The position numbers and the translations under genes are program-made. Under the pieces are notes generated by a model. It saw only the letters and a program-made list of their open reading frames with translations, was not told the origin of the DNA and did not search any database. A stretch of DNA of 64,000 nucleotides from Patiria pectinifera (Eukaryota > Echinodermata > Asteroidea > Valvatida > Asterinidae): positions 14,036,699-14,100,698 of the forward strand of contig CM057133.1 in NCBI GenBank assembly GCA_029964075.1. The letters run 5' to 3'. Positions 1,495 through 34,335 of the stretch are shown piece by piece (positions within the stretch are counted from its first letter, which is position 1; each line of letters begins with the position of its first letter).

Positions 1495-1670
1495 TTCTGT
1501 TGGATCTTGATGGATTAAGCAGTAAACATCTTGTACATATTCCTGTTGAAATCTGTTAGATTCAGCAGGCAAGCGACAACACCCATAGTCAGATTCTGTT
1601 GGGTTCTGGTAAATAAAGCCAAGTTGGACTCTGTTGGATCCAGCAGCTAACAGAAAAGTAAGGCACTTTT

Positions 1671-1750
1671 GGATTCTGTTGGATTCTGTTGGATTCTGTT
1701 GGATTCTGTTGGATTCTGTTGGATTCTGTTGGATTCTGTTGGATTCTGTT
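1671..1750. repeat. Decanucleotide minisatellite, 8 exact units of GGATTCTGTT
   Basis: Eight consecutive perfect copies, set in a wider diverged region (about 1495-1875) with GTTGGATT variants. A minus-strand frame through it reads as repeating NPTESNRIQQ, which is a by-product of the repeat and not a gene. Confidence 0.9.
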
Positions 1751-2419
1751 TGATTGAGCTTGCCAGTCATTTTATATGTTAGGTACCCAACAACTTGGCA
1801 TGTTGGGTTGTGTGGGACTGTGTTGGATTGAGCAGGAAACTCATATGGGTAACCGTCGGACTCTGTTGAATTTAGCAGGGATTTAGCAGAGAACTATTTG
1901 GGGGTGAGGGTTTCAAAATTGGAGGAATCGGGACTGTCAGTGTTAATGTCGTGTAAAAAACCTGAAGTTCATATTTGGACATAATACTTTCATCCTATTT
2001 CCACACTGTACAAGTCATGAATAGTTCAGGAGTTTGATGTATAGCCTAAATTTATATAAATACGCCGCCGATCTAAGCAAACCAACCCATTTTAATGGAC
2101 ATTGAACTGTATAAGAAATTGTGTATACAAAACAAAATGAGGGTACTCTTTATTCAACGGAATATAAACAAACGATATTTGTAATTGATGCAATAGTGTT
2201 GGAGGGCACAGCAAGTTGTGGCTAATAATGTTCACAATCCCAAGTTTCGTTTATTGAAATAATAAAAATTACTGCTACGTATATGATTGATACAATTTTT
2301 GGGAAATTAAACTAAAATCTGCGTATGATAGAGCTTTGTTGATCACAGTAGAAAAAAAAAATTGAAGTTTTCGAGATTCCTATATCTCAGCTGTGATGTG
2401 TTCCTTCTATTGTCTTCAT

Positions 2420-5400: not shown

Positions 5401-8400
5401 ATGTCTCATCGGATCTCACACTATTGCATAACTACACACATAGTGCTAATAATACCAAGTTAAAAAGATAGCACCGTATCCCACATCTCAGCAGTCAACA
5501 CTTGTTTTGTTATATCGTGCCAATACGTCAAAAAAGTTCAAGGCTTGTAGCTTACTATGCAAGAAATAAATTCATTCAGTGTTATCTTTGATAACTGCGA
5601 GCTTTTCTGTTGGACATGAGACTGAGCGGTTGCAATTCCCAGTCAAGAGAATAGGCGCGCCGACAGGCCCTACACGCGCAGGCAACGCAGAGGTAATTTT
5701 TTTTTCTTTCTATGTTTTATTGATTTGCAAATGCAATATACATTGGAAAATAAAAACAGGAATCACAAAAAATGAAGGTTATTGAAGAACAATATACTAA
5801 AATAAGGAGAAATACTTAAAAATAACACTTATTTTGAGAGAGAAACCAAGAAGAGGAGTTAATTAAAGTGGCAAGCAAGTGTTATAATTACACAACTAGA
5901 AATGTGTTTGTGGACAAACACAAGCTGTTTCGGATATTTGAAATACTCTGAGCACAGGATGAACAATCAGTGACGTCACTATAAATGTCATCTACATAAA
6001 CAGCACATTATAATATGTACATGTCAAGTGTAACCAAATCGAACATTTTAGTTATGTAGATATAGACCTATAAAAGAATAAAATGCCCCTTTAAGGGACT
6101 TCACATGACATTTGATGATGATGTCACTTCAATTTCCATCTATAACACACCCATGTGAATTTGCATATCAAGTTTTAACCCCATCAGACTTGTGCTTCCG
6201 AAGTTCAGTTTGAAGAAAAACGTGTACAAAACCAATAGGGAAACAATGCATCTTTAATGTGATGTAACCTGACACCTCATGACTCCACGATGATGAATTT
6301 CTTCTAAGTCCATCTATGGGTAGTGGTCTAAGTGTGTACCAAGTATTAAGTCGATCACATTTATGAAAGAGCCAAAGTGGAGCGTTTTAAAATGTGTACA
6401 AAACCTATGAGAAAAATGTGCATCTTTAATGTGAAGTAACGTAACACCTGATGACGTCACGATCACGAATTTCTTCAAGGACCATCTGTGGGTGGTGGTC
6501 TAAATGTGTACCAAGTGTAACGTCGATCGGATTTACGAAAGTGCCGAAATGGAGCGTTTTAAAACGTGTACAAACCCTATGGGGAAAAATGCATCTTTAA
6601 TGTGACGTAACCTGACTCTTGATGACGTCACAATCACAAATTTCATCTAGGACCATCTGTGGGTGGTGGTCTAAGTATGAATTAAGTTTAGAGTCGATCG
6701 AATTTACGAAGATGCCAAACTGGAGTGTTTTAAAACGTGTACAAAACATATGGGCAAAAATACATCTTTAATGTGACGTAACCTGACACCTGATGACGTC
6801 ACGATCACGAATTTCGTCTAGGACCATCTGTGGGTGGTGGTCTAAGTATGAATTAAGTTTAAAGTCGATCGGATTTACGAAGATGCCAAACTGGAGTGTT
6901 TTAAAACGTGTACAAAACATATGGGCAAAAATACATCTTTAATGTGACGTAATCTGGCACCTGATGACGTCACGATCACAAATTTCTTCTAGGACCATCT
7001 GTGGGTGGAGGTCTAAGTATGTACCAAGTCTGAAATCAATCGGATTTGAAAAAGTGGCAAAGTGGATTGGTGGAAGAAACGTGTGTTAAACCTATGGAGA
7101 AAAAGTCTGAAAAAGGAGAAGAAAAACTAGAAATGTGTTTGTGGACAAACACAAGCTGTTTCGGATATTTGAAATACTGATGAACACTTGATGAAGTCAC
7201 TTCGAATGTCATCTGCCAAGTGAAAAGTCAATCAGACATATAGTGCCAAAGTATGATTTGAAGAAAAACGTGTACAAAACCTATGGGGAAAAATACATCT
7301 TTAATGTGAAGTAACCTTACACTTGATGATGTCACGATCACGAATTTCTTCTAGGGCCATCTGTGGGTGGTAGTCTAAGTGTGTACCAAGTCTAACGTCG
7401 ATCGGATTTACAAAAGTGCCAAAGTAGAATGTTTTAAAACGTGTACAAACCCTATGGGGAAAAATGCATCTTTAATGTGACGTAACCCAACACCTGATGA
7501 CGTCACGATCACAAATTTCTTCTAGGACCATCTGTGGGTGATGGTCTAAGTGTGTGCCAAGTCTAAAGTACATCGAATTTACTAAAGTGCCAAAGTGGAG
7601 TGTTTTAAAACGTGTACAAACCCTATGGGGAAAATGCATGTTTAATGAGACGTAACCCGACACCTGATAACGTCACGGTCACGAATTTCTTCTAGGACCA
7701 TCTGTGGGTGGTGGTCTAAGTATGTATCAAGTCTGAGGTCGATCGGATTTACGAAGAGGCCAAAGTGGAGTGTTTTAAAACGTGTACAAAACATATGGGG
7801 AAAAATACATCTTTAATGTGACGTAACCTGACACCTGATGACGTCACGGTCACGAATTTCTTCTAGGACCATCTGTGGGTGGTGGTCCAAGTATGTACCA
7901 AGTCTGAAATCAATCGGATTTGAAAAAGTGGCAAAGTGGACTGGTGGAAGAAACGTGTGTTAAACCTATGGAGAAAAAGTCTGAAAAAGGAGAAAAAAAA
8001 AAAAAACTAGAAATGTGTTTGTGGACAAACACAAGCTGTTTCGGATATTTGAAATACTCTGTGCACGTGATGAACACTTGATGAAGTCACTTCGAATGTC
8101 ATCTGCCAAGTGAAAAGTCAATCAGACATATAGTATAAGTATGATTTCAAGAAAAACGTGTACAAACCCTAAGGGGAAAAATGCATCTTTAATGTGAAGT
8201 AACCTTACACCTGATGATGTCATGATCACGATTTTTTTCTAGGACCATCTGTAGGTGGTAGTCTAAGTGTGTACCAAGTCTAACGTCGATCGGATTTACG
8301 AAAGTGCCAAAGTAGAATGTTTTAAAACGTGTACAAACCCAATGGGGAAAAATGCATCTTTAATGTGACGTAACCCAACACCTGATGACGTCATGATCAC

Positions 8401-11400
8401 AAATTTCTTCTAGGACCATCTGTGGGTGGTAGTCTAGGTGTGTATCAAGTCTGAGGTCGATCGGATTTATGAAGAGGCCAATGTGGAGTGTTTTAAAACG
8501 TGTACAAAACATATGGGGAAAAATGCATCTTTAATGTGACGTAACCCAACACCTGATGACGTCACGATCACAAATTTCTTCTAGGACCATCTGTGGGTGG
8601 TAGTCTAAGTGTGTACCAGGTCTGACGTCGATCGGATTTACAAAAGTGCCAAAGTGGAGTGTTTTATAACGTGTACAAACCCTATGGGGAAAAATGCATC
8701 TTTAATGTGACGTAACCCAATACCAGATGACGTCACGATCTCAAATTTCTTTTAGAACCATCTGTGGGTGGTGGTCTAATTAGGTATCAAGTCTGAGGTC
8801 GATCGGATTTACGAAGAGGCCAATGTTGAGTGTTTTAAAACGTGTACAAAACATATGGGGAAAAATGCATCTTTAATGTGACGTAACCCGACACCTGATG
8901 ACGTCACGGTCACAAATTTCTTCTAGGACCATCTGTGGGTGGTGGTCTAAGTATGTATCAAGTCTGAAATCAATCGGATTTGAAAAAGTGGCAAAGTGGA
9001 CTGGTGGAAGAAACGTGTGTTAAACCTATGGAGAAAAAGTCTGAAAAAGGAGAAGAAAAAAAACTAGAGGTATGCGTTTGTGGACAAACGCAAGCTGTTT
9101 CGGCTGTGAGGTGTGTTGATGACATGACGACATCACCTCAAATTTCATAGATATTTGATACGTACATTAGTTACATGCATTTGGAATCTCTAGTTATACA
9201 AATACCGTACAATATAGGCCCTGACAATTATCCCTTTAATGGCGGCACATAACGTGATAATGTTTGAAGCAAATCCAAGTTCGAAGCCAATGGAACTAGC
9301 ACTTTCAGAGATAAATGTTCTGAAATATAATAAATACTATAACTTGAATGTTTGGTCACATGGTATGCGATGACGTCATGAAGACGTCATCATGGTGTGA
9401 TCATGACGTATAATGTGGTTTTGTACTCATAACACACCCTGGAATACTTGCGTACCAGCTTTGAACCCAATCGCACTGGTACGTCCTAGAGATAGAGAAT
9501 CTTGAATACTATAGCCGTCAGGTGATATTGTACAATGGTACGTACGTCATGGTGACGGAAATTGTTTTTGAGCCATCAGTGTGTGGTATTGTAAAATCTG
9601 ATGTCGATCAGCTTTAGCAAATTGCCAAAATATAATTATTAGCTGAAGAAAACATGTAATCCTGTTTGTATCTAGCCCCCTAAAAGCCATGGCTAACCTC
9701 CAACACGGAGTGGCCTAGTCATGAAATTTGGCCTGCGTGTCATTTTGCTTGTGTCGATCTGTGATTTTGGCCTTACATGTATTGTCCTGGCTATGGCCAT
9801 GAGTGCCGGACCAATACAGTTGCACGTCACGTACATTTTTGGACGTTTCATCACAGGAAACACTAGAGGGCAGCAAACAACTTTAACAGTAACATGATTT
9901 GTGTTGGGAGTCAAAATACCAATAGTACTGAGCAGACGAGAAGGGAATTAAATTTAATGACGTCTTGGAAAGAATTCCATATACGGACTCCAGTTATTTT
10001 CCTAGATATGACTTGAAAAGCACCAAAAGTTGTAAATCTGACGAAGAAACGGAAATTTAGGAGGGGAAAAAATCAAGATTTTCTTTAAAAATACTTTGAC
10101 GTTTCCTGTCACAGCCCATAGAGGTGGAGGCTTAAATGGAATTCTTTCCAGTGTTCCTAACGTGGCGCACTTGAACAAATCCAAAAATCCCACATTAACA
10201 TTGAAGAAATTCTTTAAAGTTGTTAACTTCTAATAAATCATGATTATCCCAACTCACAATCCCAACTCACATACCCAACTACAAGTTTGTCACATTACGT
10301 AAGCCGCATGAATCTGTGGCATCATGACTGTACCGCGTAGAGTGCGCGGGGACCTGGCCAGCTGTAAGGCGGCAAGGCATGCACACGCACGCTGTCAAAA
10401 TGTCAAGTTGGATAACGGTTGAGTTGTCCGACCCCATGGGTACAAAGCCTATGGAGAAAACAACGTGCACAATGTCTATGGAGAAAAGAACGTGTACAAA
10501 CCCTATGGAGAAAAGAACGTGTATAAACCCTATGGAGAAAAAAACGTGTACAAAACCTATGGAGAAAAGAACGTGTACAAACCCTATGGAGAAAAGAACG
10601 TGTACAAACCCTATGGGGCAAAATGCATCTTTGATGTGACGTAACTTGACTCTTGATGACGTCACGATCACGAATTTCGTCTAGGACCATCTGTGGGTGG
10701 TGGTCTAAGTATGAATTAAGTTTAAAGTCGATCGGATTTACGAAGATGCCAAACTGGAGTGTTTTAAAACGTGTACAAAACATATGGGCAAAAATACATC
10801 TTTAATGTGACGTAACCTGACACCTGATGACGTCACGATCACAAATTTCTTCTAGGACCATCTGTGGGTGGTGGTCTAAGTATGTACCAAGTCTGAAATC
10901 AATCGGATTTAAAAAAGTGGCAAAGTGGATTGGTGGAAGAAACGTGTGTTAAAGCTATGGAGAAAAAGTCTGAAAAAGGAGAAGAAAAAAAAGAAAAAAA
11001 AAAATCTTAACGAAAACAAGAGCTGTTTCGGTGTGTCACCGAAACAGCTAAAAAAAAAGAAAAAAAAAAATCTTAACGAAAACAAGAGCTGTTTCGGTGT
11101 GTCACCGAAACAGCTAAAAAGAAAAAAAAAGAAAAAAAAAATCTTAACGAAAACAAGAGCTGTTTCGGTGTGTCACCGAAACAGCTAAAAAGAAAAAACT
11201 AGAAATGTGTTTGTGTACAAACACAAGCTGTTTCGGATATTTGAAATACTGATGAACACTTGATGAAGTCACTTCGAATGTCATCTGCCAAGTGAAAAGT
11301 TAATCAGACATATAGTGCCAAAGTATGATTTGAAGAAAAACGTGTACAAAACCTATGGGGAAAAATACATCTTTAATGTGAAGTAACCTTACACTTGATG

Positions 11401-14400
11401 ATGTCACGATCACGAATTTCTTCTAGGACCATCTGTGGGTGGTAGTCTAAGTGTGTACCAAGTCTAACGTCGATCGGATTTACGAAAGTGCCAAAGTAGA
11501 ATGTTTTAAAACGTGTACAAACCCTATGGGGAAAAATGCATCTTTAATGAGACGTAACCCGACACCTGATAACGTCACGGTCACGAAATTTCTTCTAGGA
11601 CCATCTGTGGGTGGTGGTCTGAGTATGTATCAAGTCTGAGGTCGATCGGATTTACGAAGAGGCCAAAGTGGAGTGTTTTAAAACGTGTACAAAACATATG
11701 GGGAAAAATACATCTTTAATGTGACGTAACCTGACACCTGATGACGTCACGGTCACGAATTTCTTCTAGGACCATCTGTGGGTGGTGGTTCAAGTATGTA
11801 CCAAGTCTGAAATCAATCGGATTTAAAAAAGTGGCAAAGTGGACTGGTGGAAGAAACGTGTGTTAAACCTATGGAGAAAAAGTCTGAAAAAGGAGAAAAA
11901 AAAAAACTAGAAATGTGTTTGTGGACAAACACAAGCTGTTTCGGATATTTGAAATACTCTGTGCACGTGATGAACACTTGATGAAGTCACTTCGAATGTC
12001 ATCTGCCAAGTGAAAAGTCAATCAGACATATAGTATAAGTATGATTTCAAGAAAAACGTGTACAAACCCTAAGGGGAAAAATGCATCTTTAATGTGAAGT
12101 AACCTTACACCTGATGATGTCATGATCACGATTTTTTTCTAGGACCATCTGTAGGTGGTAGTCTAAGTGTGTACCAAGTCTAACGTCGATCGGATTTACG
12201 AAAGTGCCAAAGTAGAATGTTTTAAAACGTGTACAAACCCAATGGGGAAAAATGCATCTTTAATGTGACGTAACCCAACACCTGATGACGTCATGATCAC
12301 AAATTTCTTCTAGGACCATCTGTGGGTGGTAGTCTAGGTGTGTATCAAGTCTGAGGTCGATCGGATTTATGAAGAGGCCAATGTGGAGTGTTTTAAAACG
12401 TGTACAAAACATATGGGGAAAAATGCATCTTTAATGTGACGTAACCCAACACCTGATGACGTCACGATCACAAATTTCTTCTAGGACCATCTGTGGGTGG
12501 TAGTCTAAGTGTGTACCAGGTCTGACGTCGATCGGATTTACAAAAGTGCCAAAGTGGAGTGTTTTATAACGTGTACAAACCCTATGGGGAAAAATGCATC
12601 TTTAATGTGACGTAACCCAATACCAGATGACGTCACGATCTCAAATTTCTTTTAGAACCATCTGTGGGTGGTGGTCTAATTAGGTATCAAGTCTGAGGTC
12701 GATCGGATTTACGAAGAGGCCAATGTTGAGTGTTTTAAAACGTGTACAAAACATATGGGGAAAAATGCATCTTTAATGTGACGTAACCCGACACCTGATG
12801 ACGTCACGGTCACAAATTTCTTCTAGGACCATCTGTGGGTGGTGGTCTAAGTATGTATCAAGTCTGAAATCAATCGGATTTGAAAAAGTGGCAAAGTGGA
12901 CTGGTGGAAGAAACGTGTGTTAAACCTATGGAGAAAAAGTCTGAAAAAGGAGAAGAAAAAAAACTAGAGGTATGCGTTTGTGGACAAACGCAAGCTGTTT
13001 CGGCTGTGAGGTGTGTTGATGACATGACGACATCACCTCAAATTTCATAGATATTTGATACGTACATTAGTTACATGCATTTGGAATCTCTAGTTATACA
13101 AATACCGCACAATATAGGCCCTGACAATTATCCCTTTAATGGCGGCACATAACGTGATAATGTTTGAAGCAAATCCAAGTTCAAGCCAATGGAACTAGCA
13201 CTTTCAGAGATAAATGTTCTGAAATATAATAAATACTATAACTTGAATGTTTGGTCACATGGTATGCGATGACGTCATGAAGACGTCATCATGGTGTGAT
13301 CATGACGTATAATGTGGTTTTGTACTCATAACACACCCTGGAATACTTGCGTACCAGCTTTGAACCCAATCGCACTGGTACGTCCTAGAGATAGAGAATC
13401 TTGAATACTATAGCCGTCAGGTGATATTGTACAATGGTACGTACGTCATGGTGACGGAAATTGTTTTTGAGCCATCAGTGTGTGGTATTGTAAAATCTGA
13501 TGTCGATCAGCTTTAGCAAATTGCCAAAATATAATTATTAGCTGAAGAAAACATGTAATCCTGTTTGTATCTAGCCCCCTAAAAGCCATGGCTAACCTCC
13601 AACACGGAGTGGCCTAGTCATGAAATTTGGCCTGCGTGTCATTTTGCTTGTGTCGATCTGTGATTTTGGCCTTACATGTATTGTCCTGGCTATGGCCATG
13701 AGTGCCGGACCAATACAGTTGCACGTCACGTACATTTTTGGACGTTTCATCACAGGAAACACTAGAGGGCAGCAAACAACTTTAACAGTAACATGATTTG
13801 TGTTGGGAGTCAAAATACCAATAGTACTGAGCAGACGAGAAGGGAATTAAATTTAATGACGTCTTGGAAAGAATTCCATATACGGACTCCAGTTATTTTC
13901 CTAGATATGACTTGAAAAGCACCAAAAGTTGTAAATCTGACGAAGAAACGGAAATTTAGGAGGGGAAAAATCAAGATTTTCTTTAAAAATACTTTGACGT
14001 TTCCTGTCACAGCCCATAGAGGTGGAGGCTTAAATGGAATTCTTTCCAGTGTTCCTAACGTGGCGCACTTGAACAAATCCAAAAATCCCACATTAACATT
14101 GAAGAAATTCTTTAAAGTTGTTAACTTCTAATAAATCATGATTATCCCAACTCACAATCCCAACTCACATACCCAACTACAAGTTTGTCACATTACGTAA
14201 GCCGCATGAATCTGTGGCATCATGACTGTACCGCGTAGAGTGCGCGGGGACCTGGCCAGCTGTAAGGCGGCAAGGCATGCACACGCACGCTGTCAAAATG
14301 TCAAGTTGGATAACGGTTGAGTTGTCCGACCCCATGGGTACAAAGCCTATGGAGAAAACAACGTGCACAATGTCTATGGAGAAAAGAACGTGTACAAACC

Positions 14401-17400
14401 CTATGGAGAAAAGAACGTGTATAAACCCTATGGAGAAAAAAACGTGTACAAAACCTATGGAGAAAAGAACGTGTACAAACCCTATGGAGAAAAGAACGTG
14501 TACAAACCCTATGGGGCAAAATGCATCTTTGATGTGACGTAACTTGACTCTTGATGACGTCACGATCACGAATTTCGTCTAGGACCATCTGTGGGTGGTG
14601 GTCTAAGTATGAATTAAGTTTAAAGTCGATCGGATTTACGAAGATGCCAAACTGGAGTGTTTTAAAACGTGTACAAAACATATGGGCAAAAATACATCTT
14701 TAATGTGACGTAACCTGACACCTGATGACGTCACGATCACAAATTTCTTCTAGGACCATCTGTGGGTGGTGGTCTAAGTATGTACCAAGTCTGAAATCAA
14801 TCGGATTTAAAAAAGTGGCAAAGTGGATTGGTGGAAGAAACGTGTGTTAAAGCTATGGAGAAAAAGTCTGAAAAAGGAGAAGAAAAAAAAACTAGAAATG
14901 TGTTTGTGGACAAACACAAGCTGTTTCGGATATTTGAAATACTCTGTGCACGTGATGAACACTTGATGAAGTCACTTCGAATGTCATCTGCCAAGTGAAA
15001 AGGCAATCAGACATACATTTATAGTGCCAAAGTATGATTTGAAGAAACACGTGTACAAAACCTATGGGAAAATGCATCTTTAATGTGAAGTAACCTTACA
15101 CCTAATGATGTCACGATCACGAATTTCTTCTAGGACCATCTGTGGGTGGTAGTCTAAGGGTGTACCAAGTCTAACGTCAATCGGATTTACGAAAGTGCCA
15201 AAGTAGAATGTTTAAAACGTGTACAAACCCTATGGTGAAATATGCATCTTTAATGTGATGTAACCCAACATCTGATGACGTCACGATCACAAATTTCTTC
15301 TAGGACCATCTGTGGGTGATGGTCTAAGTGTGTGCCAAGTCTAAAGTCCATCGGATTTACGAATGTGCCAAAGTGGAGTGTTTTAAAACGTGTACAAAAC
15401 ATATGGGGAAAACTGCATCTTTAATGCGACGTAACCCGACACCTGATGACGTCACGGTCACAAATTTCTTCTAGAACCATTTGTGGGTGGTGGTCTAAGT
15501 ATGTATCAAGTCTGAGGTCGATCGGATTTACAAAAGTGCCAAACTTGAGTGTTTTATAACGTGTACAAACCATATGGGGAAAAATGCATCTTTAATGTGA
15601 CGTAACCCGACACCTGATGAAGTTACGGTCACGAATTTCTTCTAGGACCATCTGTGGGTGGTGGTCTAAGTATGTATCAAGTCTGAAATCAATCGGATTT
15701 GAAAAAGTGGCAAAGTGGACTGGTGGAAGAAACGTGTGTTAAACCTATGGAGAAAAAGTCTGAAAAAGGAGAAAAAAAAAAAATAAAAGATGCAAAGTTA
15801 GGGCGCCCTCACATGACGACCACAGAAGTGATACTGTCGCCACCGATATTTTCACATTAACACTTCCCAATATGAGGGCATTCAAAGTTTCAACGCAACG
15901 GGACGCATGCTTACAAAGATAAAGGGCTGCAAATGATGCTATGTTAGGGCGCCCTCACATGACGACCGATGACGTCACCTTGACTTAACCTATATTCTGG
16001 TGTATAACAGTTTCAAGTTTGTGTGAATGCAAAGCTTCAACCAAATCGGATGCATACTCGTGGGGATATGGAAATTATGCAAAGTTAGGGCGCCCTCACA
16101 TGACAGCTAATGACGTCGCGATGACGTCACCTATATTGCCGCACGAAACACACCCCAATGTGAGCGCATGCAAAGTTTCAACACAATCGGACCCATACTT
16201 GCAAAGTTACAGGGCTGCAACAAATGCAAAGTTAGGGCGCCCTCACATGACACCTGATGACGTCACCATGACGACAACCTTACAGGACCATCTGTGGGTG
16301 GTGGTCTAAGTATGTATCAGGTCTGAGGTCGATCGGATTTACGAAGAGGCCAAAGTGGAGTGTTTTAAAACGTGTACAAAACATATGGGGAAAAATGCAT
16401 CTTTAATGTGACGTAACCCGACACCTGATGACGTCACGGTCACGAATTTCTTCTAGGACCATCTGTGGGTGGTAGTCTAAATATGTATCAAGTCTGAAAT
16501 CAATCGGATTTGAAAAAGTGGCAAAGTGGACTGGTGGAAGAAACGTGTGTTAAACCTATGGAGAGAAAGTCTGAAAAAGGAGAAAAAAAAAAAGAAAAAA
16601 AAGAAAAAAAAAGAAAAAAAAAAATCTTAACGAAAACAAGAGCTGTTTCGGTGTGTCACCGAAACAGCTAAAAAAAAAGAAAAAAAAAAATCTTAACGAA
16701 AACAAGAGCTGTTTCGGTGTGTCACCGAAACAGCTAACTAGAAATGTGTTTGTGGACAAACACAAGCTGTTTCGGATATTTTAAATACTCTGTGCACGTG
16801 ATGAACACTTGATGAAGTCACTTCGAATGTCATCTGCCAAGTGAAAAGTCAATCAGACATACAGGTGTATAGTGCCAAAGTATTATTTGAAGAAAAACTT
16901 GTACAAAACCTATGGGGAAAAATGCATCTTTAATGTAAAGTAACCTTACACCTGATGATGTCACGATCACGAATTTCTTCTAGGACCATCTGTTGGTGTT
17001 GGTCTAAGTATGTACCAAGTCTGAGGTTGATCGGATTTACAAAGAGTCGAAAGTGGAGTGTTTTAAAACGTGTACAAAACATATGGAGAAAAATGAATCT
17101 TTAATGTGACGTAACCCGACACCTGATGACGTCACGGTCACGAATTTCTTCTAGGACCATCTGTGGGTGATGGTCTATGTGTGTACCAAGTGTAACGTCA
17201 ATCAGATTTACGAAAGTGCCGAAATGGAGCGTTTTAAAACGTGTACAAACCCTATGGGGCAAAATGCATCTTTATTGTGACGTAACCTGACTCTTGATTA
17301 CGTCACGATCACGAATTTCGTCTAGGACCATCTGTGGGTGGTGGTCTAAGTATAAATTCAGTTTAAAGTCGATTGGATTTACGAAGATGCCAAACTAGAG

Positions 17401-20400
17401 TGTTTTAAAACGTGTACAAAACATATGGGCGAAAATACATCTTTAATGTGACGTAACCTGACACCTGATGACGTCACGATCACAAATTTCTTCTAGGACC
17501 ATCTGTGGGTGGTGGTCTAAGTATGTACCAAGTCTGAAATCAATCGGATTTTAAAAAGTGGCAAAGTGGATTGGTGGAAGAAACGTGTGTTAAACCTATG
17601 GAGAAAAAGTCTGAAAAAGGAGAAGAAAAAAAAAACTAGAAATGTGTTTGTGGACAAACACAAGCTGTTTCGGATATTTGAAATACTCTGTGCACGTGAT
17701 GAACACTTGATGAAGTCACTTCGAATGTCATCTGCCAAGTGAAAAGTCAATCAGACATATAGTATAAGTATGATTTCAAGAAAAACGTGTACAAACCCTA
17801 AGGGGAAAAATGCATCTTTAATGTGAAGTAACCTTACACCTGATGATGTCATGATCACGATTTTTTTCTAGGACCATCTGTAGGTGGTAGTCTAAGTGTG
17901 TACCAAGTCTAACGTCGATCGGATTTACGAAAGTGCCAAAGTAGAATGTTTTAAAACGTGTACAAACCCAATGGGGAAAAATGCATCTTTAATGTGACGT
18001 AACCCAACACCTGATGACGTCATGATCACAAATTTCTTCTAGGACCATCTGTGGGTGGTAGTCTAGGTGTGTATCAAGTCTGAGGTCGATCGGATTTATG
18101 AAGAGGCCAATGTGGAGTGTTTTAAAACGTGTACAAAACATATGGGGAAAAATGCATCTTTAATGTGACGTAACCCAACACCTGATGACGTCACGATCAC
18201 AAATTTCTTCTAGGACCATCTGTGGGTGGTAGTCTAAGTGTGTACCAGGTCTGACGTCGATCGGATTTACAAAAGTGCCAAAGTGGAGTGTTTTATAACG
18301 TGTACAAACCCTATGGGGAAAATGCATCTTTAATGTGACGTAACCCAATACCAGATGACGTCACGATCTCAAATTTCTTTTAGAACCATCTGTGGGTGGT
18401 GGTCTAATTAGGTATCAAGTCTGAGGTCGATCGGATTTACGAAGAGGCCAATGTTGAGTGTTTTAAAACGTGTACAAAACATATGGGGAAAAATGCATCT
18501 TTAATGTGACGTAACCCGACACCTGATGACGTCACGGTCACAAATTTCTTCTAGGACCATCTGTGGGTGGTGGTCTAAGTATGTATCAAGTCTGAAATCA
18601 ATCGGATTTGAAAAAGTGGCAAAGTGGACTGGTGGAAGAAACGTGTGTTAAACCTATGGAGAAAAAGTCTGAAAAAGGAGAAGAAAAAAGAAAAAAAAAA
18701 ATCTTAACGAAAACAAGAGCTGTTTCGGTGTGTCACCGAAACAGCTAAAAAAAAGAAAAAGAAAAAAAAAAATCTTAACGAAAACAAGAGCTGTTTCGGT
18801 GTGTCACCGAAACAGCTAAAAAGAAAAAAGAAAAAAAAAATCTTAACGAAAACAAGAGCTGTTTCGGTGTGTCACCGAAACAGCTAAAAAAAAAAAAAAA
18901 AGAAAAAAAAGAAAAAAGAACTAGAAATGTGTTTGTGGACAAACACAAGCTGTTTCGGATATTTGAAATACTCTGAGCACGGGATGAACAATCAGTGACG
19001 TCACTATAAATGTCATCTACATAAACAGCACATTATAATATGTACATGTCAAGTTACAACCAAATCGAACATTTTAGTTATGTAGATATAGACCTATAAA
19101 AGAATAAAATGCCCCTTTAAGGGACTTCACATGACATTTGATGATGATGTCACTTCAATTTCCATCTATAACACACCCATGTGAATTTGCATATCAAGTT
19201 TTAACCCCATCAGACTTGTGCTTCCGAAGTTCAGTTTGAAGAAAAACGTGTACAAAACCAATAGGGAAACAATGCATCTTTAATGTGATGTAACCTGACA
19301 CCTCATGACTCCACGATGATGAATTTCATCTAGGTCCATCTATGGGTAGTGGTCTAAGTGTGTACCAAGTATCAAGTCGATCACATTTATGAAAGTGCCA
19401 AAGTGGAGCGTTTTAAAATGTGTTCAAAACCTATGAGAAAAATGTGCATCTTTAATGTGAAGTAACGTAACACCTGATGACGTCACGATCACGAATTTCT
19501 TCAAGGACCATCTGTGGGTGGTGGTCTAAGTGTGTACCAAGTATAACGTCGATCGGATTTACGAAAGTGCCGAAATGGAGCGTTTTAAAACGTGTACAAA
19601 CCCTATGGGGCAAAATGCATCTTTAATGTGACGTAACCTGACTCTTGATGACGTCACAATCACGAATTTCATCTAGGACCATCTGTGGGTGGTGGTCTAA
19701 GTATGAATTAAGTTTAGAGTCGATCGGATTTACGAAGATGCCAAACTGGAGTGTTTTAAAACGTGTACAAAACATATGGGCAAAAATACATCTTTAATGT
19801 GACGTAACCTGACACCTGATGACGTCATGATCACAAATTTCTTCTAGGACCATCTGTGGGTGGAGGTCTAAGTATGTACCAAGTCTGAAATCAATCGGAT
19901 TTAAAAAAGTGGCAAAGTGGATTGGTGGAAGAAACGTGTGTTAAACCTATGGAGAAAAAGTCTGAAAAAGGAGAAGAAAAAAAAGAAACTAGACGGACGT
20001 TGTGTTTGTAGGTAAACAAACACCGAGCTGTTTCGGTGTTTTTTTTCTGTCTTTGAATGAAAAAGATTGACGTGGCCATCGGTGGCTATCGAACCCAGAA
20101 CCTTTGTGTGGGGATTCCAAGTTTTTGCCGTGTGTGCCAAGTGTGTGAAGTCGATTTATGTCAGACGTCCTAAATCCACGTGGTTCAATGTGTGCGCAGT
20201 CCTCTTTTCTTTGCGTTTGGGAACGGGTGCGCGTGCAAAGCGTACATGTACCTGTGCGCAGATGATGATAGCGGGTCGAGGATAGATTTAGGAAAGTGTG
20301 AAAGTGTACCTGTATTTAGCAACTTATTTCTGGTGTCTATATTTGAAGTAGGAAAGACGAAATGTGTTCAACTATGTTGGGAGTGAAAATACCAATAGTA

Positions 20401-23400
20401 CTGAGCAGACGAAAAGGGAATTAAATTTAATGACGTCTTGGAAAGAATTCCATATACGGACTCCAGTTATTTTCCTAGATATGACTTGAAAAGTACCAAA
20501 AGTTGTAAATCTGACGAAGAAACGGAAATTTAGGAGGGGAAAAAATCAAGATTTTCTTTAAAAATACTTTGACGTTTCCTGTCATGGCCCATAGAGGTGG
20601 AGGCTTATATGGAATTCTTTCCAGTGTTCCTAACGTGGCGCACTTGAACAAATCCCCAAAAATCCCACATTAACATTTAAGAAATTCTTTAAAGTTGTTA
20701 ACTTCTGATAAATCATGATTATTCCAACTCACATACCCAACTACAAGTTTGTCACATTTACGTAAGCCGCATAAATCTGTGGCATCATGACTGTACCGCG
20801 TAGAGTGCGCGGGGACCTGGCCAGCTGTAGGGCGGCAAGGCATGCACGCGCACGCTGTTAAAATGTCAAGTTGGATAACGGTCGAGTTGTCTGACCCTGG
20901 CCCCATGGGTACAAAGCCTATGGAGAAAACAACGTGCACAATGCCTATGGAGAAAAGAACGTGTACAAACCCTATGGAGAAAAGAACGTGTACAAACCCT
21001 ATGGAGAAAAGAACGTGTACAAACCCTATGGAGAAAAGAACGTGTACAAAACCTATGGAGAAAAGAACGTGTACAAACCCTATGGAGAAAAGAACGTGTA
21101 CAAACCCTATGGACAAAAATTGCAACTTTAATGTTACGTAACTTGACACTTGATGACGTCATGATTACGAATTTCTTTTAGGACCATCTATGGATGATGT
21201 TCTAAGTGTGTGCCAAGTCTGAGGTTGATGCAATTTAAGAAAGTGCCAAAGTGCCCTTGCAGAAGAAAAAACGTGTACAAAACCTATGGAGAAGAGTCTG
21301 AAAGAGAAAAAGAAAAAAAAACTAGACGGACGTTGTGTTTGTAGGTAAACAAACACCGAGCTGTTTCGGTGTTTTTTTTCTGTCTTTGAATGAAAAAGAT
21401 TGACGTGGCCATCGGTGGCTATCGAACCCAGAACCTTTGTGTGGGGATTCCAAGTTTTTGCCGTGTGTGCCAAGTGTGTGAAGTCGATTTATGTCAGACG
21501 TCCTAAATCCACGTGGTTCAATGTGTGCGCAGTCCTCTTTTCTTTGCGTTTGGGAACGGGTGCGCGTGCAAAGCGTACATGTACCTGTGCGCAGATGATG
21601 ATAGCGGGTCGAGGATAGATTTAGGAAAGTGTGAAAGTGTACCTGTATTTAGCAACTTATTTCTGGTGTCTATATTTGAAGTAGGAAAGACGAAATGTGT
21701 TCAACTATGTTGGGAGTGAAAATACCAATAGTACTGAGCAGACGAAAAGGGAATTAAATTTAATGACGTCTTGGAAAGAATTCCATATACGGACTCCAGT
21801 TATTTTCCTAGATATGACTTGAAAAGTACCAAAAGTTGTAAATCTGACGAAGAAACGGAAATTTAGGAGGGGAAAAAATCAAGATTTTCTTTAAAAATAC
21901 TTTGACGTTTCCTGTCATGGCCCATAGAGGTGGAGGCTTATATGGAATTCTTTCCAGTGTTCCTAACGTGGCGCACTTGAACAAATCCCCAAAATCCCAC
22001 ATTAACATTTAAGAAATTCTTTAAAGTTGTTAACTTCTGATAAATCATGATTATTCCAACTCACATACCCAACTACAAGTTTGTCACATTTACGTAAGCC
22101 GCATAAATCTGTGGCATCATGACTGTACCGCGTAGAGTGCGCGGGGACCTGGCCAGCTGTAGGGCGGCAAGGCATGCACGCGCACGCTGTTAAAATGTCA
22201 AGTTGGATAACGGTCGAGTTGTCTGACCCTGGCCCCATGGGTACAAAGCCTATGGAGAAAACAACGTGCACAATGCCTATGGAGAAAAGAACGTGTACAA
22301 ACCCTATGGAGAAAAGAACGTGTACAAACCCTATGGAGAAAAGAACGTGTACAAACCCTATGGAGAAAAGAACGTGTACAAAACCTATGGAGAAAAGAAC
22401 GTGTACAAACCCTATGGAGAAAAGAACGTGTACAAACCCTATGGACAAAAATTGCAACTTTAATGTTACGTAACTTGACACTTGATGACGTCATGATTAC
22501 GAATTTCTTTTAGGACCATCTATGGATGATGTTCTAAGTGTGTGCCAAGTCTGAGGTTGATGCAATTTAAGAAAGTGCCAAAGTGCCCTTGCAGAAGAAA
22601 AAACGTGTACAAAACCTATGGAGAAGAGTCTGAAAGAGAAAAAGAAAAAAAAAAAAAAAGAAAAAAAAAAACTTTAACGAAAACAAGAGCTGTTTCGGTT
22701 GTAACCGAAACAGCTAAAAAAAAGAAAAAAAAAAACTTTAACGAAAACAAGAGCTGTTTCGGTTGTAACCGAAACAGCTAAAAACTAGAAATGTGTTTGT
22801 GGACAAACACAAGCTGTTTCGGATATTTGAAATACTCTGTGCACGTGATGAACACTTAATGAAGTCACTTCGAATGTCATCTGTCAAGTGTAAAGTCAAT
22901 CAGCATACAGGTGTATAGTGCCAAAGTATTATTTGAAGAAAAACCTGTACAAAACCTATGGGGAAAAATGCATCTTTAATGTGAAGTAACCTTACACCTG
23001 ATGATGTCACGTTCACAAATTTCTTCCAGGACCATCTGTGGGTGGTAGTCTAAGTGTGTACCAAGTCTAACGTCGATCAGATGTATGAAAGTGCCAAAGT
23101 AGAGTGTTTTAAAAAGTGTACAAAACCTATGGGGAAAAATCATCTTTAATGTGACATAACCCAACACCTGATGACGTCATGATCACAAATTTCTTCTAGG
23201 ACCATCTGTGGGTGGTGGTCTAACTATTTTCCAAGTCTGAAATCGATCGGATTTAAAAAAGTGGCAAAGTGGATTGGTAGAAGAAACATGTGTTAAACCT
23301 ATGGAGAAAAAGTCTGAAAAAGGAGAAGAAAAAACTAGAGGTCTATGTCTGTTTGCAACAGAGCATAGGGCTTTTCCGCATTATTTTTTTTTAATTGGGG

Positions 23401-26400
23401 TCATGTTTTTGGTTTGGTGCAAAACTGTGTGCATTTATGTTTTGTCTAACAAACCTCATTCAAAGGGAAATTTGATTTTGGCATATTGCATTTGTGAGAT
23501 ACGGCAAAAGTCTTATATATAAAAAATATATATATAATCACAAGATGACGTCATTATGACGTCAGTTCAATATTTATTTGTAACACATCCCGGCCTACCC
23601 CCAAACCAAGTTTCAACCCAATCTGATGTACTGTTCGTGAGATATAGGGGCTTAAAATGTACAAGTTAACGATGATGTCACAAGTGTAATGATGACGTCA
23701 TCGTAACAATACTTGGCAGTGCTCAATTTTTTATTGTGGTTTTAGTCTGTACCAAGTTTGAAAACAATCGGATTAATAAAAGTGTTAAATTTTGTAAGCA
23801 GAATAAAATAAGCAATATTAAAAAAATCTTTAAAAATCGACCGATGACGTCATCGTGACGTCATTCAAGATTTTGTGTACTAGTGTCATTATCTACCCAC
23901 CCACCAAGTTTCATGATGATCGGACGTTGCCTTATATGTGTTTCAAAATCGCATTTTTGCTGACGTCATCATGACGTCACGCATTTTTCCAATTTTTGTG
24001 CATATATCTATTGCCCAGCGAACCTAATACAAAAAGAATTTCGAGTTTATCATATTGCGTTAGTGAGATATGGCAAAAGTCTTCAAAAATTCAAAATTAA
24101 ATATAAAATCACATGATGACGTCATGATGACGTCATCTCAAATTTTATCTATAACACTTCCCGGTCTAACCACATGCTGAGTTTCAAGCCATTCGGACAT
24201 ACCGTTCTGTAGATATAGGGCTTTGAAATATGCAACGTTGCGATGACGTCACATGACCAATGAAAAAGTCATCATTGCGTCTATCTTCGCGAACGACCTT
24301 TGCTATATGTTCTATGACTATGTTAAGTTTTGTTGTCATATGACTTTGTTTTATGCCAAAAGTGTTTGCTAGAAAAAACGTGCACAAAGTCTATGGCATT
24401 TTGGTTGGAAGTCCCAAGAGGAAAAAAAAAAAAAAAAAAAAAAGAAAAAAGAAAAAAAATTCGTAGAGAAACAAAGGCTTTTCCGCAACTTTGCGGAAAA
24501 GCCAAAAAAGATATATAGTGCCAAACTATATAGAAAAACGTGTACAAAACCTATGGGGCAATATGCATCTTTAATGTGAAGTAACCTTACGCCTGATGAT
24601 GTCACAATCACCAATTTCTTCTAGGACCATCTGTGGGTGGTAGTCTAAGTGTTTACCAAGTCGAACGTCGATCATATTTACAAAAGTGCCAAAGTAGAAT
24701 GTTTTAAAACGTGTACAAATCCTATGGGGAAAAATGCATCTTTAAAGTGACGTAACCCAACACCTGATGACGTCACGATCGCGAATTTCTTCTAGGACCA
24801 TCTGTGGGTGGTGGTGCAACTATGTATCAAGTCTGAGGTCGATCGGATTTACGAAGAGGCCAAAGTGGAGTGTTTTAAAACGTGTACAAAACATATGGGG
24901 AAAAATGCATCTTTAATGTGACGTAACCCAACACCTGATGACGTCATGGTCACGAATTTCTTCTAGGACCATCTGTGGGTGGTGGTATAAGTATGTATAA
25001 AGTCTGAGGTCGATCGGATTTACGAAGAGGCCAAAGTGGAGTGTTTTAAAACGTGTACAAAACATATGGGGAAAATGCATCTTTAATGTGACGTAACCCG
25101 ACACCCGATGACGTCACGGTCACGAATTTCTTCTAGGACCATCTGTGGGTGGCGGTCTAAGTATGTACCAAGTCTGAAATCGATCGGATTTAAAAAAGTG
25201 GCAAAGTGGACTGGTGGAAGAAACGTGTGTTAAACCTATGGAGAAAAAGTCTGAAAAAGGAGAAGAAAAAAAAACTAGAAATGTGTTTGTGGACAAACAC
25301 AAGCTGTTTCGGATATTTGAAATACTCTGTGCACGTGATGAACACTTGATGAAGTCACTTCGAATGTCATCTGGCAAGTGAAAAGTCAATCAGACATATA
25401 GTGCCAAAGTATGATTTGAAGAAAAACGTGTACAAACCCTATGGGGGAAAAATGCATCTTTAATGTGAAGTAACCTTACACCTGATGATGTCACGATCAC
25501 AAATTTCTGCTAGGACCATCTGTAGGTGGTAGTCTAAGTGTGTACCAAGTCTAACGTCGATCGGATTTACGAAAGTGCCAAAGTAGAATGTTTTAAAACG
25601 TGTACAAACCCTATGGGGAAAATTGCATCTTTAATGTGACGTAACCCAACACCTGATGACGTCACGATCACAAATTTCTTCTAGGACCATCTGTGGGTGG
25701 TAGTCTAAGTGTGTACTAATTCTGATGTCGATCGGATTTACAAAAGTGCCAAAGTGGAGTGTTTTATAACGTGTACGAACCCTAGGGGAAAAATGCATCT
25801 TTAATGTGACGTAACCCAGCACCAGATGACGTCAGGATCACAAATTTCTTCTAGAACCATCTGTGGGTGGTGGTCTAAGTATGTATTAAGTCTGAGGTCG
25901 ATCAGATTTACGAAGAGGCCAAAGTGGAGTGTTTAAAAACGTGTACAAAACATATGGGGGAAAATGCATCTTTAATGTGACGTAACCCGACACCTGATGA
26001 CGTCACGGTCACGAATTTCTTCGAGGACCATCTGTGGGTGGTGGTCTAAGTGTGTACCAAGTGTAACGTCGATCGGATTTACGAAAGTGCCAAAATGGAG
26101 CGTTTTAAAACGTGTACAAAACATATAAGGAAAAATGCATCTTTAATGTGACGTAACCCGACACCTGATGACGTCACGGTCACGAATTTCTTCAAGGACC
26201 ATCTGTGGGTGGTAGTCTAAGTGTGTACTAATTCTGACGTCGATCGGATTTACAAAAGTGCCAAAATGGAGCGTTTTAAAACGTGTACAAACCCTATGGG
26301 GCAAAATGCATCTTTGATGTGACGTAACTTGACTCTTGATGACGTCACGATCACGAATTTCGTCTAGGACCATCTGTGGGTGGTGGTCTAAGTATGAATT

Positions 26401-29400
26401 AAGTTTAAAGTCAATCGGATATACGAAGATGCCAAACTGGAGTGTTTTAAAACGTGTACAAAACATATGGGCAAAAATACATCTTTAATGTGACGTAACC
26501 TGACACCTGATGACGTCACGATCACAAATTTCTTCTAGGACCATCTGTGGGTGGTGGTCTAAGTATGTACCAAGTCTGAAATCAATCGGATTTAAAAAAG
26601 TGGCAAAGTCGATTGGTGGAAGAAACGTGTGTTAAACCTATGGAGAAAAAGTCTGAAAAAGGAGAAGAAAAAAAAAAAAGAAAAAAAAAAATCTTAACGA
26701 AAACAAGAGCTGTTTCGGTGTGTCACCGAAACAGCTAAAAAAAAGAAAACTAGAAATGTGTTTGTGGACAAACACAAGCTGTTTCGGATATTTGAAATAC
26801 TCTGTGCACGTGATGAACACTTGATGAAGGAAGTCACTTCGAATGTCATCTGCCAAGTGAAAAGTCAATCAGACATATAGTATAAGTATGATTTCAAGAA
26901 AAACGTGTACAAACCCTAAGGGGAAAAATGCATCTTTAATGTGAAGTAACCTTACACCTGATGATGTCATGATCACGATTTTTTTCTAGGACCATCTGTA
27001 GGTGGTAGTCTAAGTGTGTACCAAGTCTAACGTCGATCGGATTTACGAAAGTGCCAAAGTAGAATGTTTTAAAACGTGTACAAACCCAATGGGGAAAAAT
27101 GCATCTTTAATGTGACGTAACCCAACACCTGATGACGTCATGATCACAAATTTCTTCTAGGACCATCTGTGGGTGGTAGTCTAGGTGTGTATCAAGTCTG
27201 AGGTCGATCGGATTTATGAAGAGGCCAATGTGGAGTGTTTTAAAACGTGTACAAAACATATGGGGAAAAATGCATCTTTAATGTGACGTAACCCAACACC
27301 TGATGACGTCACGATCACAAATTTCTTCTAGGACCATCTGTGGGTGGTAGTCTAAGTGTGTACCAGGTCTGACGTCGATCGGATTTACAAAAGTGCCAAA
27401 GTGGAGTGTTTTATAACGTGTACAAACCCTATGGGGAAAAATGCATCTTTAATGTGACGTAACCCAATACCAGATGACGTCACGATCTCAAATTTCTTTT
27501 AGAACCATCTGTGGGTGGTGGTCTAATTAGGTATCAAGTCTGAGGTCGATCGGATTTACGAAGAGGCCAATGTTGAGTGTTTTAAAACGTGTACAAAACA
27601 TATGGGGAAAAATGCATCTTTAATGTGACGTAACCCGACACCTGATGACGTCACGGTCACAAATTTCTTCTAGGACCATCTGTGGGTGGTGGTCTAAGTA
27701 TGTATCAAGTCTGAAATCAATCGGATTTGAAAAAGTGGCAAAGTGGACTGGTGGAAGAAACGTGTGTTAAACCTATGGAGAAAAAGTCTGAAAAAGGAGA
27801 AGAAAAAAAAAAAAAAAGAAAAAAAAAAATCTTAACGAAAACAAGAGCTGTTTCGGTGTGTCACCGAAACAGCTAAAAAAAAATCTTAACGAAAACAAGA
27901 GCTGTTTCGGTGTGTCACCGAAACAGCTAAAAAAAGAAAAAAAAAAAAAAAAAGAAAAAAGAAAAAAAAAAATCTTAACGAAAACAAGAGCTGTTTCGGT
28001 GTGTACACCGAAACAGCTAAAAAAAAAAATCTTAACAAAAACAAGAGCTGTTTCGGTGTGTACACCGAAACAGCTAATTAATATTGATACACCGCAGTGT
28101 ATATGAGGTAATTTATACGCAACACAGTGTATATGAGGTAATTTACATGGAACGCAGTGTATATGAAGTGAACGATTTGGGTTACTTTTTTTACAGATTG
28201 GACAAGTGGCTGTTCTGGACCAATGAAATCGCAGAATCCAAGACACGATGTAGCAAATTCTATGCTCACCTGGTGGTTGGCTATCGGGACCTTGTTGATA
28301 GCCTGAATCTCCTTGATCATCTTCAGGTTGAAGTTGGACACGCCGATGGCCTTGCACATGCCTTTTTCCACAAGCTGCTCCATCGCCTTGAAACGGAAGG
28401 ACACAAACCAGATTGTAGTCGGACATCGGATATTTACCAACCATAAACCCATGTTTATAAATAAAATAGACCTCTGTGGTAATGAAGTCACGTTTTGTTT
28501 ACAAGTGCGCTTTCCTACGGGAGCCAGGTGAGACGAGAGTCACCAAGCTCCTTCAGAAAGGGCACATCTAAAAAAAAAAAGAAAAAAAGTGTGGCATCAT
28601 TATAAGGGCGTCCAACACCGTATGGGGAACTGCACACACATATTTCTGACTTTGATTCTGGAGGTGTGCCAACGCAATGTAAAAGACCGTCAGTTAAGGG
28701 GTACTGTACCCATCCTGACAGATTCTGACAAAACATGCTGTTGGGGTTTGATGGGTTGAGTTCTGTTAGGGTTAATACATTTTTTGTTTGTTAGTGGGGG
28801 TTCCAGATACGGTCGGCAGAAACATTAATGTTTTCCCTGTGTCGGGAGCCCAATATAGTGTCGGTCGGAAACAAAAACCAACGAATAAGGAAGGGTTGCC
28901 CTAATTCAGGTCAGTTGATTTGTGTCGGTTAGGGTACATGGTAAACTTACGAGCCAGGTGTCAGTGTACTCAATGTCATCCACCTGCGTCTCACCGTTTT
29001 CATCCTCGGGAAAGAGTACATCCCCCCTCTGGAAAGAAAAATAAGCATGATTAAGTTCACTCTCAATGTTCAGCACAGGCTAAGAAACACAATTCCCCCC
29101 GCCTTTTGATTTGTAGCGTGCATTGTGTGTCCATTCGCTAACAGGTTTCAGAAGCGTGCCTACGAGAAGACATTTTTGTGGCGAAGATTCAGTCCTTCTG
29201 TTTTGAGGCGTGCGATCACACCCCCACGCCATCACACGCCTAAAAGCTTCCCGAGAAGTGCGAAAAAATCGCACGCCTGAATCACTCAGTACAGCACACC
29301 TCGGCATACATTTACGGCAAAATTATACTTCATAATTTGTGAAATATAAAGTACACGCATGTCGGTGAAGAGAAAACGGCTTCATTGTAAACCAAGATGA

Positions 29401-32507: not shown

Positions 32508-32598
32508 GGCTTAGAATCTAGTCACACTTGAAGTGAGAAAGCCCGCCGAATCACCCGCAACTAGACTTCAAGCTTCAGACTCCACCCACCGGTTAGCT

Positions 32599-33496
32599 GA
32601 ATGTCGGACACTTCGCCCCATTTCCACGTCGCCCCATGTCACTTCGCCCCTAACCACTTCGCCCCATCCCCACTTCGCCCCATTCCCACTTCGCCCCATC
32701 CCCACTTCGCCCCATCCCCACTTCGCCCCAGCCGTTACATGTAAAAAAAATCTCATCTATTTTATTGGCTTAAAAAACAATTTCAACAGATTCACTAATT
32801 GCTAACCAACGGAAAGAATTAGCCCATCACCAAATGAACAATTCATAACCAACCTCTCGAGCTAGGCTCTCCCCTACCGACAAAAAAGCTTTAAGTAAAA
32901 GATCCAACTTTGTTCCCAACCCGGCTATACCAACCCGTCTCCCACTTATCTGAGAACGACAATACCTTTGACATCCTAATTTCACTCTTGGAGGAACCAA
33001 TCTCATCTAAATGAAGTTGTAAGTGTCACATATCAGACAAATTTTGACGAAACATTTTCCTCAAGGCAGTGAGTTCCTTTTAACTCACTGACCCATACCT
33101 ACGGATTCTTTTGAATCCAGCGGCTGATGATTTTAATCACAAGCCAATAGGAGAGGCGTCTCTGAATGGGATAGAGCCATCATTTCTCTCATCTGTGTCT
33201 CGAGCACCTCATCAGAGAGTGTGTATTTTTCCTAAGTTTCTAGAATTGGGAGCATTTTATTATCTGGGGTCTTTGGCAGTTTATTTGGTCTGCACCCCTT
33301 CACCTTTTTCATACTACATGGGGCGAAGTGGGGATGGGGCGAAGTGGGGATGGGGCGAAGCGGGGATGGGGCGAAGTGGGGATGGGGCGAAGCGGAGATG
33401 GGGCGATGTGGGGATGGGGCGAAGTGGGGATGGGGCGAAGTGGTTAGGGGCGAAGTGACATGGGGCGACGTGGAAATGGGGCGAAGCGTCCGATAC
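32599..33496. mobile_element. Mutator-like foldback element, 898 bp, perfect 10-bp target duplication
   Basis: Flanked by CCGGTTAGCT at 32589-32598 and 33497-33506. Ends are GAATGTCGGACACTTCGCC and, inverted, GTATCGGACGCTTCGCC. Both termini are long inverted arms (about 32605-32735 and 33317-33490) built from a CCCCACTTCGCCCCAT minisatellite. The middle has no transposase-like frame. A 9-10-bp duplication and long tandem-rich arms fit Mutator-like foldback elements. It lies 91 bp upstream of the AKR copy 1 start codon. Confidence 0.85.
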
Positions 33497-33506
33497 CCGG
33501 TTAGCT

Positions 33507-34323: not shown

Positions 34324-34335
34324 CTTTAGTTTATG

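Follow-up and report, generated by a model that had tools for sequence, protein, structure and literature searches.

How did a block of some 22 kb, built of repeated units in one orientation, arise in the genome of the starfish Patiria pectinifera, and what are its units? The block occupies positions 5896-28077 of a 64,000-nt stretch (hereafter the window; positions 14,036,699 to 14,100,698 of contig CM057133.1, GenBank assembly GCA_029964075.1) and is the only one of its kind there. An earlier reading of the letters alone, here called the sequence-only reading, had noticed the array; this observation is confirmed, but the array had been read on the wrong strand. We conclude that its minus-strand units are very probably non-autonomous Helentron-type rolling-circle transposons (HINEs), nested mainly by insertion into their own T-rich leaders. 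The conclusion is drawn from unit anatomy, element ends, an empty site, reconstruction of interrupted leaders and nested pairing of ends, all of which are read directly in the sequence.

On the minus strand, a unit consists in 5' to 3' order of TT, a subterminal inverted repeat (subTIR) hairpin AGCTGTTTCGG-loop-CCGAAACAGCT, a T-rich leader, a body, another CCGAAACAGCT, a stem-loop and a 3'-terminal CTAG followed by T. The 5' palindromic subterminal repeat (TTAGCTGTTTCGG...CCGAAACAGCT) stands right after the 5' TT, and the sequence CTTGTTTT(C/T)GTTAA lies between hairpin and leader in 15 of 16 hairpins, subfamily 4 being different. Bodies are made of ~171-bp repeats in most units, again with the exception of subfamily 4. 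Ends composed of CTAG, stem and box number 17 (5896 to 26750), all in the same orientation; palindromic 5' hairpins (the "tail" hairpins of the sequence-only reading) number 16 (11021 to 28075). A loose scan for opposite-strand ends gave a single match, the CTAG at 18921 with the next hairpin and nothing else. The earlier count of about 17 cassettes between 5896 and 28075 thus agrees with the numbers of both kinds of ends, but not with that of bodies, of which 19 starts are found (in two of them, near 15783 and 24508, the CTAG end is gone), nor with the outer boundary at 28077. The units and hairpins are as follows.

5896-28077, minus: whole nested HINE insertion, with host sequence ...TTACACAA and TTAATATTG... 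on either side
5896-7126, minus: L-type founder element; 3' end (CTAG, stem-loop, subTIR), body, leader tail
7127-8006, minus: unit x, 3' end and body
8007-9063, minus: unit T, 3' end and body; 0 mismatches to the copy at 11907 over 1,047 bp
9064-11020, minus: subfamily 2 unit with own leader
11021-11186, minus: three 5' subTIR hairpins (11021-11049, 11087-11115, 11158-11186) and leader pieces
11199-11906, minus: unit x, second copy
11907-12963, minus: unit T, second copy
12964-14891, minus: subfamily 2 unit, second copy
14892-15782, minus: unit y, 5' hairpin lost
15783-16640, minus: unit with lost 3' end and different internal repeat
16641-16735, minus: two 5' subTIR hairpins (16641-16669, 16707-16735)
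16738-17635, minus: unit z
17636-18717, minus: unit T, third copy
18718-18885, minus: three 5' subTIR hairpins (18718-18746, 18789-18817, 18857-18885)
18921-19988, minus: L-type element, second copy
19989-21321, minus: subfamily 3 outer element, 3' end and body
21322-22687, minus: subfamily 3 inner element with own leader
22688-22779, minus: two subfamily 3 5' hairpins (22688-22715, 22752-22779)
22785-23334, minus: short unit w
23335-24503, minus: subfamily 4 element, complete, subTIR GGCTTTTCCGC, body without 171-bp repeats
24476-24503, minus: subfamily 4 5' hairpin
24508-25274, minus: unit with lost 3' end
25275-26736, minus: unit v, complete with 5' hairpin
26708-26736, minus: 5' subTIR hairpin of unit v
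26750-27874, minus: unit T, complete, leader intact
27846-28075, minus: four 5' subTIR hairpins, type a (27846-27874, 27900-27928) and type b (27989-28018, 28046-28075), the last being the 5' end of the founder
39775-39895, no strand: paralogous empty site, insertion point 39814/39815

Since the window contains a paralogous empty site, both outer ends of the block can be fixed. The left flank matches 39775-39814 at 37 of 40 bases and the right flank matches 39815-39895 at 74 of 81, which places the boundary at 28077 and the insertion between AA and TT, without target duplication. The two sites belong to a tandem segmental duplication of roughly 10 kb (2357-5621 with 28078-34688, and 36156-46209; ~73-97% identity in pieces). 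The array is located in its left copy, and the duplication carries an aldo-keto reductase exon (Pfam match at 28078-28539).

Individual ends display the same preference. TT follows 17 of 17 3' ends in the window and 58 of 63 in 20 stretches taken from elsewhere in the host genome; it precedes 16 of 16 and 75 of 76 5' ends, respectively. On the plus strand, an A/G run of at least 6 bases adjoins 12 of the 16 inner 3' ends, although such tracts make up 3.1% of the array; the remaining four are next to shorter tracts. The empty site and these counts correspond to the T-rich, duplication-free insertion of HINEs; the host site AA/TT fits insertion between A and T as well as insertion at TT.

These features suggest a simple mode of growth. 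Elements insert at TT without target duplication, and each offers a favoured landing place of its own in the T-rich leader that separates 5' hairpin from body, so that later copies land inside earlier ones. Because the T tract is strand-specific and both ends of an element lie next to T on the same strand, a child would adopt the orientation of its parent, giving a head-to-tail array. Insertion into the leader would therefore pile up 5' hairpins at the outer 5' side and leave hairpin-less bodies following each other's CTAG. Copying would be of the rolling-circle kind, with an autonomous Helentron acting on HINEs in trans. In the array, only 7 of 19 bodies adjoin their own hairpin, 11 come right after the CTAG of another unit and one follows a truncated unit, while hairpins are found in runs of up to four. 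The cassette plan of the sequence-only reading (CTAG, hairpin, monomers and A-rich tract) is thus correct in its order, but a tail hairpin immediately beside the body holds for those seven units only.

If units are nested, excision of a child should restore the leader of its parent. In each of the three cases tested, the restored leader equals that of an intact sister. When the inner subfamily 3 element is removed from the outer one, the 48-letter leader equals the inner element's own; when subfamily 2 is removed from unit T at 8007 and at 11907, the 45-letter leader equals that of intact T at 26750. Hairpin 16735 was paired with unit T at 11907 because its leader piece fits. Reassembly of the two L leaders, one scattered across the array in four pieces and the other in three, gives sequences of 75 letters whose tracts each contain 54 T and 5 C, at an edit distance of 2; this was equalled by 151 of 20,000 random deals of the pieces, and one inferred lost 5' end is used. 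Two x leaders rebuild to similar but unequal sequences of 47 and 53 letters, and both start with T10, others with a full first run having T11.

We wondered if the same organization occurs at other loci of the host genome (613.5 Mb, 1,020 contigs searched). A 605-base query gave at least 110 matches (40 of 1,777 candidates scored), at least 41 of them at no less than 92% over at least 603 of the 605 bases, two being inside the window. The independent-locus analysis covered the 20 stretches mentioned above; since they were found with an L query, L ends are over-represented among them. One locus (L019) is a solitary element whose two ends are the predicted hairpin and CTAG, and the flanks covered contain no array sequence. 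The sequence-only reading had made its interpretation depend on solitary copies with such ends, and this one bears it out. Five more (L014, L015, L017, L024, L032) are multi-element nests with both outer ends inside the stretch. In these six complete loci, numbers of 5' and 3' ends are equal (one diverged 3' end of L014 was detected by hand only), flanks lack array sequence except in L014, and the outermost ends match in type, b with L five times and a with type 1 once. The remaining 14 stretches are cut or incomplete. Across all 20, nested pairing joined 47 of 61 3' ends to a hairpin (b-L 13, b-other 4, non-b-L 9, neither 21; p=0.0026), whereas pairing with the nearest hairpin (53 pairs, p=0.34) or in order (49 pairs, p=0.37) revealed no such agreement of types. 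Ends of subfamilies 3 and 4 gave 4 matches and 2 mismatches under nested pairing, compared with 5 matches and 7 mismatches under nearest and 2 and 3 under in-order pairing. In one further locus (L021, near 1606-6212 on the element strand), another subTIR variant starting AGCTGTTCCCAATT is mixed into a different nest.

Several observations weigh against nesting or limit its support. If 5' hairpins are written as opening and 3' ends as closing brackets, 16 stand against 17 and one of 33 is unmatched; this balance alone is not significant, as it was equalled in 22,140 of 200,000 random orders and, when run sizes were shuffled, in 66,774 of 200,000. Bracket balance was therefore dropped as a sole proof, and leader reconstruction and independent loci were used instead; with family types included, the balance was reached in 23 of 200,000, to which adjacent same-type ends contribute. 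Deletions must be assumed, since three hairpins and two 3' ends are missing, and one inferred lost 5' end each is needed to join hairpin 16735 to T at 11907 and to pair the L elements. The third T copy (17636) has a shorter leader, with T6 and not T15. At other loci, 14 of 61 3' ends are unpaired because their stretch contains no further hairpin, 9 of the 22 L ends that were paired have a non-b partner, two nested subfamily 3/4 pairs mismatch, and pairs within one locus are not independent. TT is lacking after 5 of 63 3' ends. An array-like old fragment (133 bp, 81%) lies beside the 5' end of L014, and the downstream flanks of L015 and L032 measure just 114 and 109 bp. Finally, no transposase was matched among 10 scanned open reading frames (ORFs) of the 29 in the window.

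Head-to-tail arrays may also be generated in other ways. Missed termination has been held responsible for tandem Helitron clusters (PMC4067079), and Helitron arrays of bats, of silkworm and of plant centromeres have been explained as concatemers (PMC4067079, PMC12628747). Here, the whole array would have arisen by failure to stop at a 3' terminator, or by repeated copying of a circular intermediate, and would have been inserted in one event; the shared orientation agrees with this, as does the near identity of two subfamily 3 units that lie side by side. However, a concatemer should have a 5' hairpin between successive bodies, whereas most bodies here come right after a CTAG, the hairpins being stacked at other places. 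Both hairpins of the neighbouring subfamily 3 units stand on one side, and their split leader is restored exactly. Moreover, the most similar unit is a neighbour in 2 of 19 units only (one unit has no similar unit), which argues against local tandem duplication. A concatemer, already disfavoured, is thus very improbable. An origin from a few inserted elements by unequal crossing-over or by duplication of blocks, with hairpin runs grown by slippage, seems just as hard to sustain. A block of ~3.9 kb is indeed repeated (7127-11198 and 11199-14891), and hairpin runs have periods of 54-89 bp. Yet identity between the two blocks jumps at the CTAG of a composite, the distance between hairpins is variable, T tracts having been cut at different points, and hairpin types pair with 3'-end types in nested order at other loci.

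This composite consists of unit T and subfamily 2, the latter lying at the same point of the T leader in both block copies. Within it, one mismatch was counted in 2,964 aligned bases, compared with 7 in 697 and an additional 171-column gap for the flanking x units (p=6e-5); forced alignment of the x half next to the composite gives 23 differences in 575. At least this nested pair, subfamily 2 inside unit T, thus probably moved again as one composite, its inner CTAG being read through. Block duplication followed by gene conversion is the competing account of this pattern. Composites with several 5' ends and one 3' end could also have been inserted ready-made, as published for FoHeli elements of Fusarium (PMC5148889), in which case hairpin runs would not record separate insertions. 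Loci with many hairpins in a row (L013, L028) point in this direction, but the six complete loci have as many 5' as 3' ends, and so nearly does the window (16 to 17); we consider this explanation improbable. Nested self-insertion is preferred over all of these.

The sequence-only reading had also suggested that the hairpins matter for copying or insertion; they are the ends of the element. As single-stranded DNA, the 5' hairpin folds at -13.5 to -15 kcal/mol, with z -5.46 to -8.11, in the four variants analysed; the 3' stem on the CTAG side, likewise in four variants, folds at -6.2 to -7.8 kcal/mol, with z -1.55 to -3.48. The paired stem changes reported for the tail hairpin are present: both sides change in 5 of 13 pairs, with 100% of cells paired and no broken pair, a result attained in 1 of 500 shuffles, or in 9 of 500 when pair types are counted, on four distinct sequences with all five changes coming from the divergent subfamily 4 hairpin at 24476. 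Six slid registers of the hairpin contained no pair changing on both sides. The CGGTG/CACCG to CGGTT/AACCG change is likewise present by eye, but falls in an alignment gap and so outside the covariation count, and a T-A to C-G change in the CTAG-side stem is seen in the alignment, outside the score. Between families, the subTIR changes from CCGAAACAGCT to GCGGAAAAGCC in both 5' hairpin arms and the 3' copy together. This is in particular true for subfamily 4 (23335-24503), in which the box GGCTTTTCCGC replaces GCTGTTTCGG and the 3' subTIR is altered in step with the 5' hairpin. Since three copies of one box vary together, the pattern points to one protein or one pairing step that would recognise both element ends.

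To which group do these elements belong? The order of their parts agrees with that given for HINEs by Thomas et al. 2014 (PMC4067079), where subTIRs are 11-15 bp long with the 5' copy 2-4 nt from the end, the 3' subTIR lies ~38-60 bp and the stem-loop 8-35 bp from the 3' end. In our units, the subTIR is 11-13 bp long, palindromic, 2 nt from the 5' end and matched by a 3' copy that starts 38, 40, 48 and 45 nt from the terminus in the four subfamilies. The 3' stem ends 3-9 nt before CTAG, or 7-13 nt from the terminus, about the lower limit of the published range. Further features shared with the HINEs and Helentrons of mites, Culex and Drosophila (DINE-1) in that source are the 3' stem-loop, T-rich/TT insertion without target duplication, a 5' subTIR that forms a palindrome (in mite and Culex), the presence of tandem repeats in part of the copies and variable numbers of T at the ends. 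The fixed CTAG 3' terminus and copies nested in their own leader set the present elements apart from these. The likeness to HINE/Helentron relics pointed out by the sequence-only reading is therefore upheld, and the three features it found not to fit lose their strangeness on the minus strand. The plus strand was rejected as sense strand, the 5'/3' asymmetry of HINEs fitting minus. The supposed CTAG start is the 3' terminus, an end that could be taken for a start because CTAG is its own reverse complement; A-rich junctions are T-rich target and leader; head-to-tail insertion is expected for a strand-specific T tract. As a whole, that interpretation is partly supported.

CTAG termini have precedents. 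In PMC4067079, proto-Helentron-Pi of Phytophthora infestans has 5' TT, 3' CTAG and no target duplication, but it is coding, ~14 kb long and structurally more Helitron-like than Helentron-like, whereas our elements are short and have Helentron-type subTIRs. The non-autonomous Hel-2 Helitrons of Lepidoptera (PMC4344730) combine 3' CTAG and stem-loop with a 5' inverted repeat, subterminal inverted repeats and internal tandem repeats; they differ in 5' TC and a (CTGT)n microsatellite, and the available text describes no self-nested arrays. Cg_HINE of the Pacific oyster (PMC7492417), compared by description and not by sequence, shares a subTIR, inverted repeat, microsatellite-like leader, satellite-like central repeats, T-rich targets and a short 3' module with palindrome; the word "nested" is absent from its main text. 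The FoHeli (Helitron2) elements combine asymmetric terminal inverted repeats with hairpins, either at a single end or at both, and with several 5' ends ascribed to self-insertion, but are fungal and end in ATTTT or CTCCTGT, and their report gives one nested example besides elements with several 5' ends.

Canonical Helitrons (Helitron1) start with TC, whereas here 5' TT is followed by AGCT or GGCT. Their CTRR 3' end and insertion between A and T agree with CTAG and the AA/TT site; their hairpin ~11 bp from the 3' end in the absence of subTIRs does not, as subTIRs are present, although the distance is borderline. The asymmetric terminal inverted repeats and palindromes at both ends of Helitron2 are found as well. 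Judged by ends alone, Helentron and Helitron2 would both fit, and a coding partner would be needed to separate them. Exact end patterns had 0 matches in viral contigs and prokaryotic genome contigs, from which little follows, given that only viral and prokaryotic DNA was covered.

The units appear non-coding, as HINEs are: the longest ORF wholly within the block has 162 amino acids (aa), and one of two such ORFs (20670-21158) had no Pfam match. The 10 ORFs scanned with Pfam, from the 29 of at least 110 aa in the window, comprise one aldo-keto reductase exon, two phosphoglycerate-mutase-type exons and seven without match. Across 32 loci, 22 open frames of at least 170 aa were found, some running through masked N, and the two longest (L014) lie outside its nest. 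The palindrome TGACGTCA, the CRE/ATF site, is found 64 times within the array, where shuffling predicts ~0.3 occurrences, and a single time in the remainder of the window. Bodies of subfamilies 2 and 3 have a 46-column stretch (89-91%) in common with the right-hand duplicated locus (~10150-10192 and counterparts; 40965-41010), possibly captured host sequence. The truncated unit at 15783-16260 has another internal repeat (GATGCAAAGTTAGGGCGCCCTCACATGAC...), unlike the 171-bp monomers.

Outside the array, the window contains a ~197-bp sequence in two copies, 92% identical (34330-34526 and 51330-51525). Rfam (gathering threshold) and ARAGORN gave two tRNA-like matches in the window, both outside the array; the tRNA-like parts of these copies lie on the minus strand (Rfam tRNA, 34418-34490 and 51417-51489), and the pair looks like a tRNA-derived short interspersed element. 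Exons similar to cofactor-independent phosphoglycerate mutase are located at 50181-50534 and 53578-54045 (Pfam iPGM_N and Metalloenzyme). A region of ~1 kb (45065-46050) matches its own reverse complement at 74%, forming a large degenerate palindrome, and a 16-bp minisatellite (ATGGGGCGAAGTGGGG) is present at 32604-32733 and 33318-33493 in opposite orientations, 95% alike.

How satellite arrays originate from transposons is an open question, for which rolling-circle read-through, recombination and insertion-site preference have been proposed. The kind of element and self-insertion as such are already known: HINEs with central repeats (PMC7492417), 3' CTAG ends with subterminal repeats (PMC4344730) and self-insertion giving several 5' ends (PMC5148889) are published, and target-site preference is reported as a cause of dimers in PMC12628747. 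What is new is the leader as site of self-insertion, followed letter by letter and tested in other loci; the literature searched contained no account of HINEs that nest in their own leader, although this does not prove that none exists. The array can be dissected insertion by insertion, restored sites are letter-exact in three cases, and the same grammar is found elsewhere in the host genome. There is about an even chance that the leader serves as the element's own landing pad, a homing site that would account for self-nesting, fixed orientation, continued mobility of inner and composite copies through read-through of inner 3' ends, growth of satellite-like arrays and an insertion record ordered like brackets. 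Nested-bracket pairing of 5' and 3' ends, followed by agreement of their types, provides a test applicable to any Helentron-rich genome.

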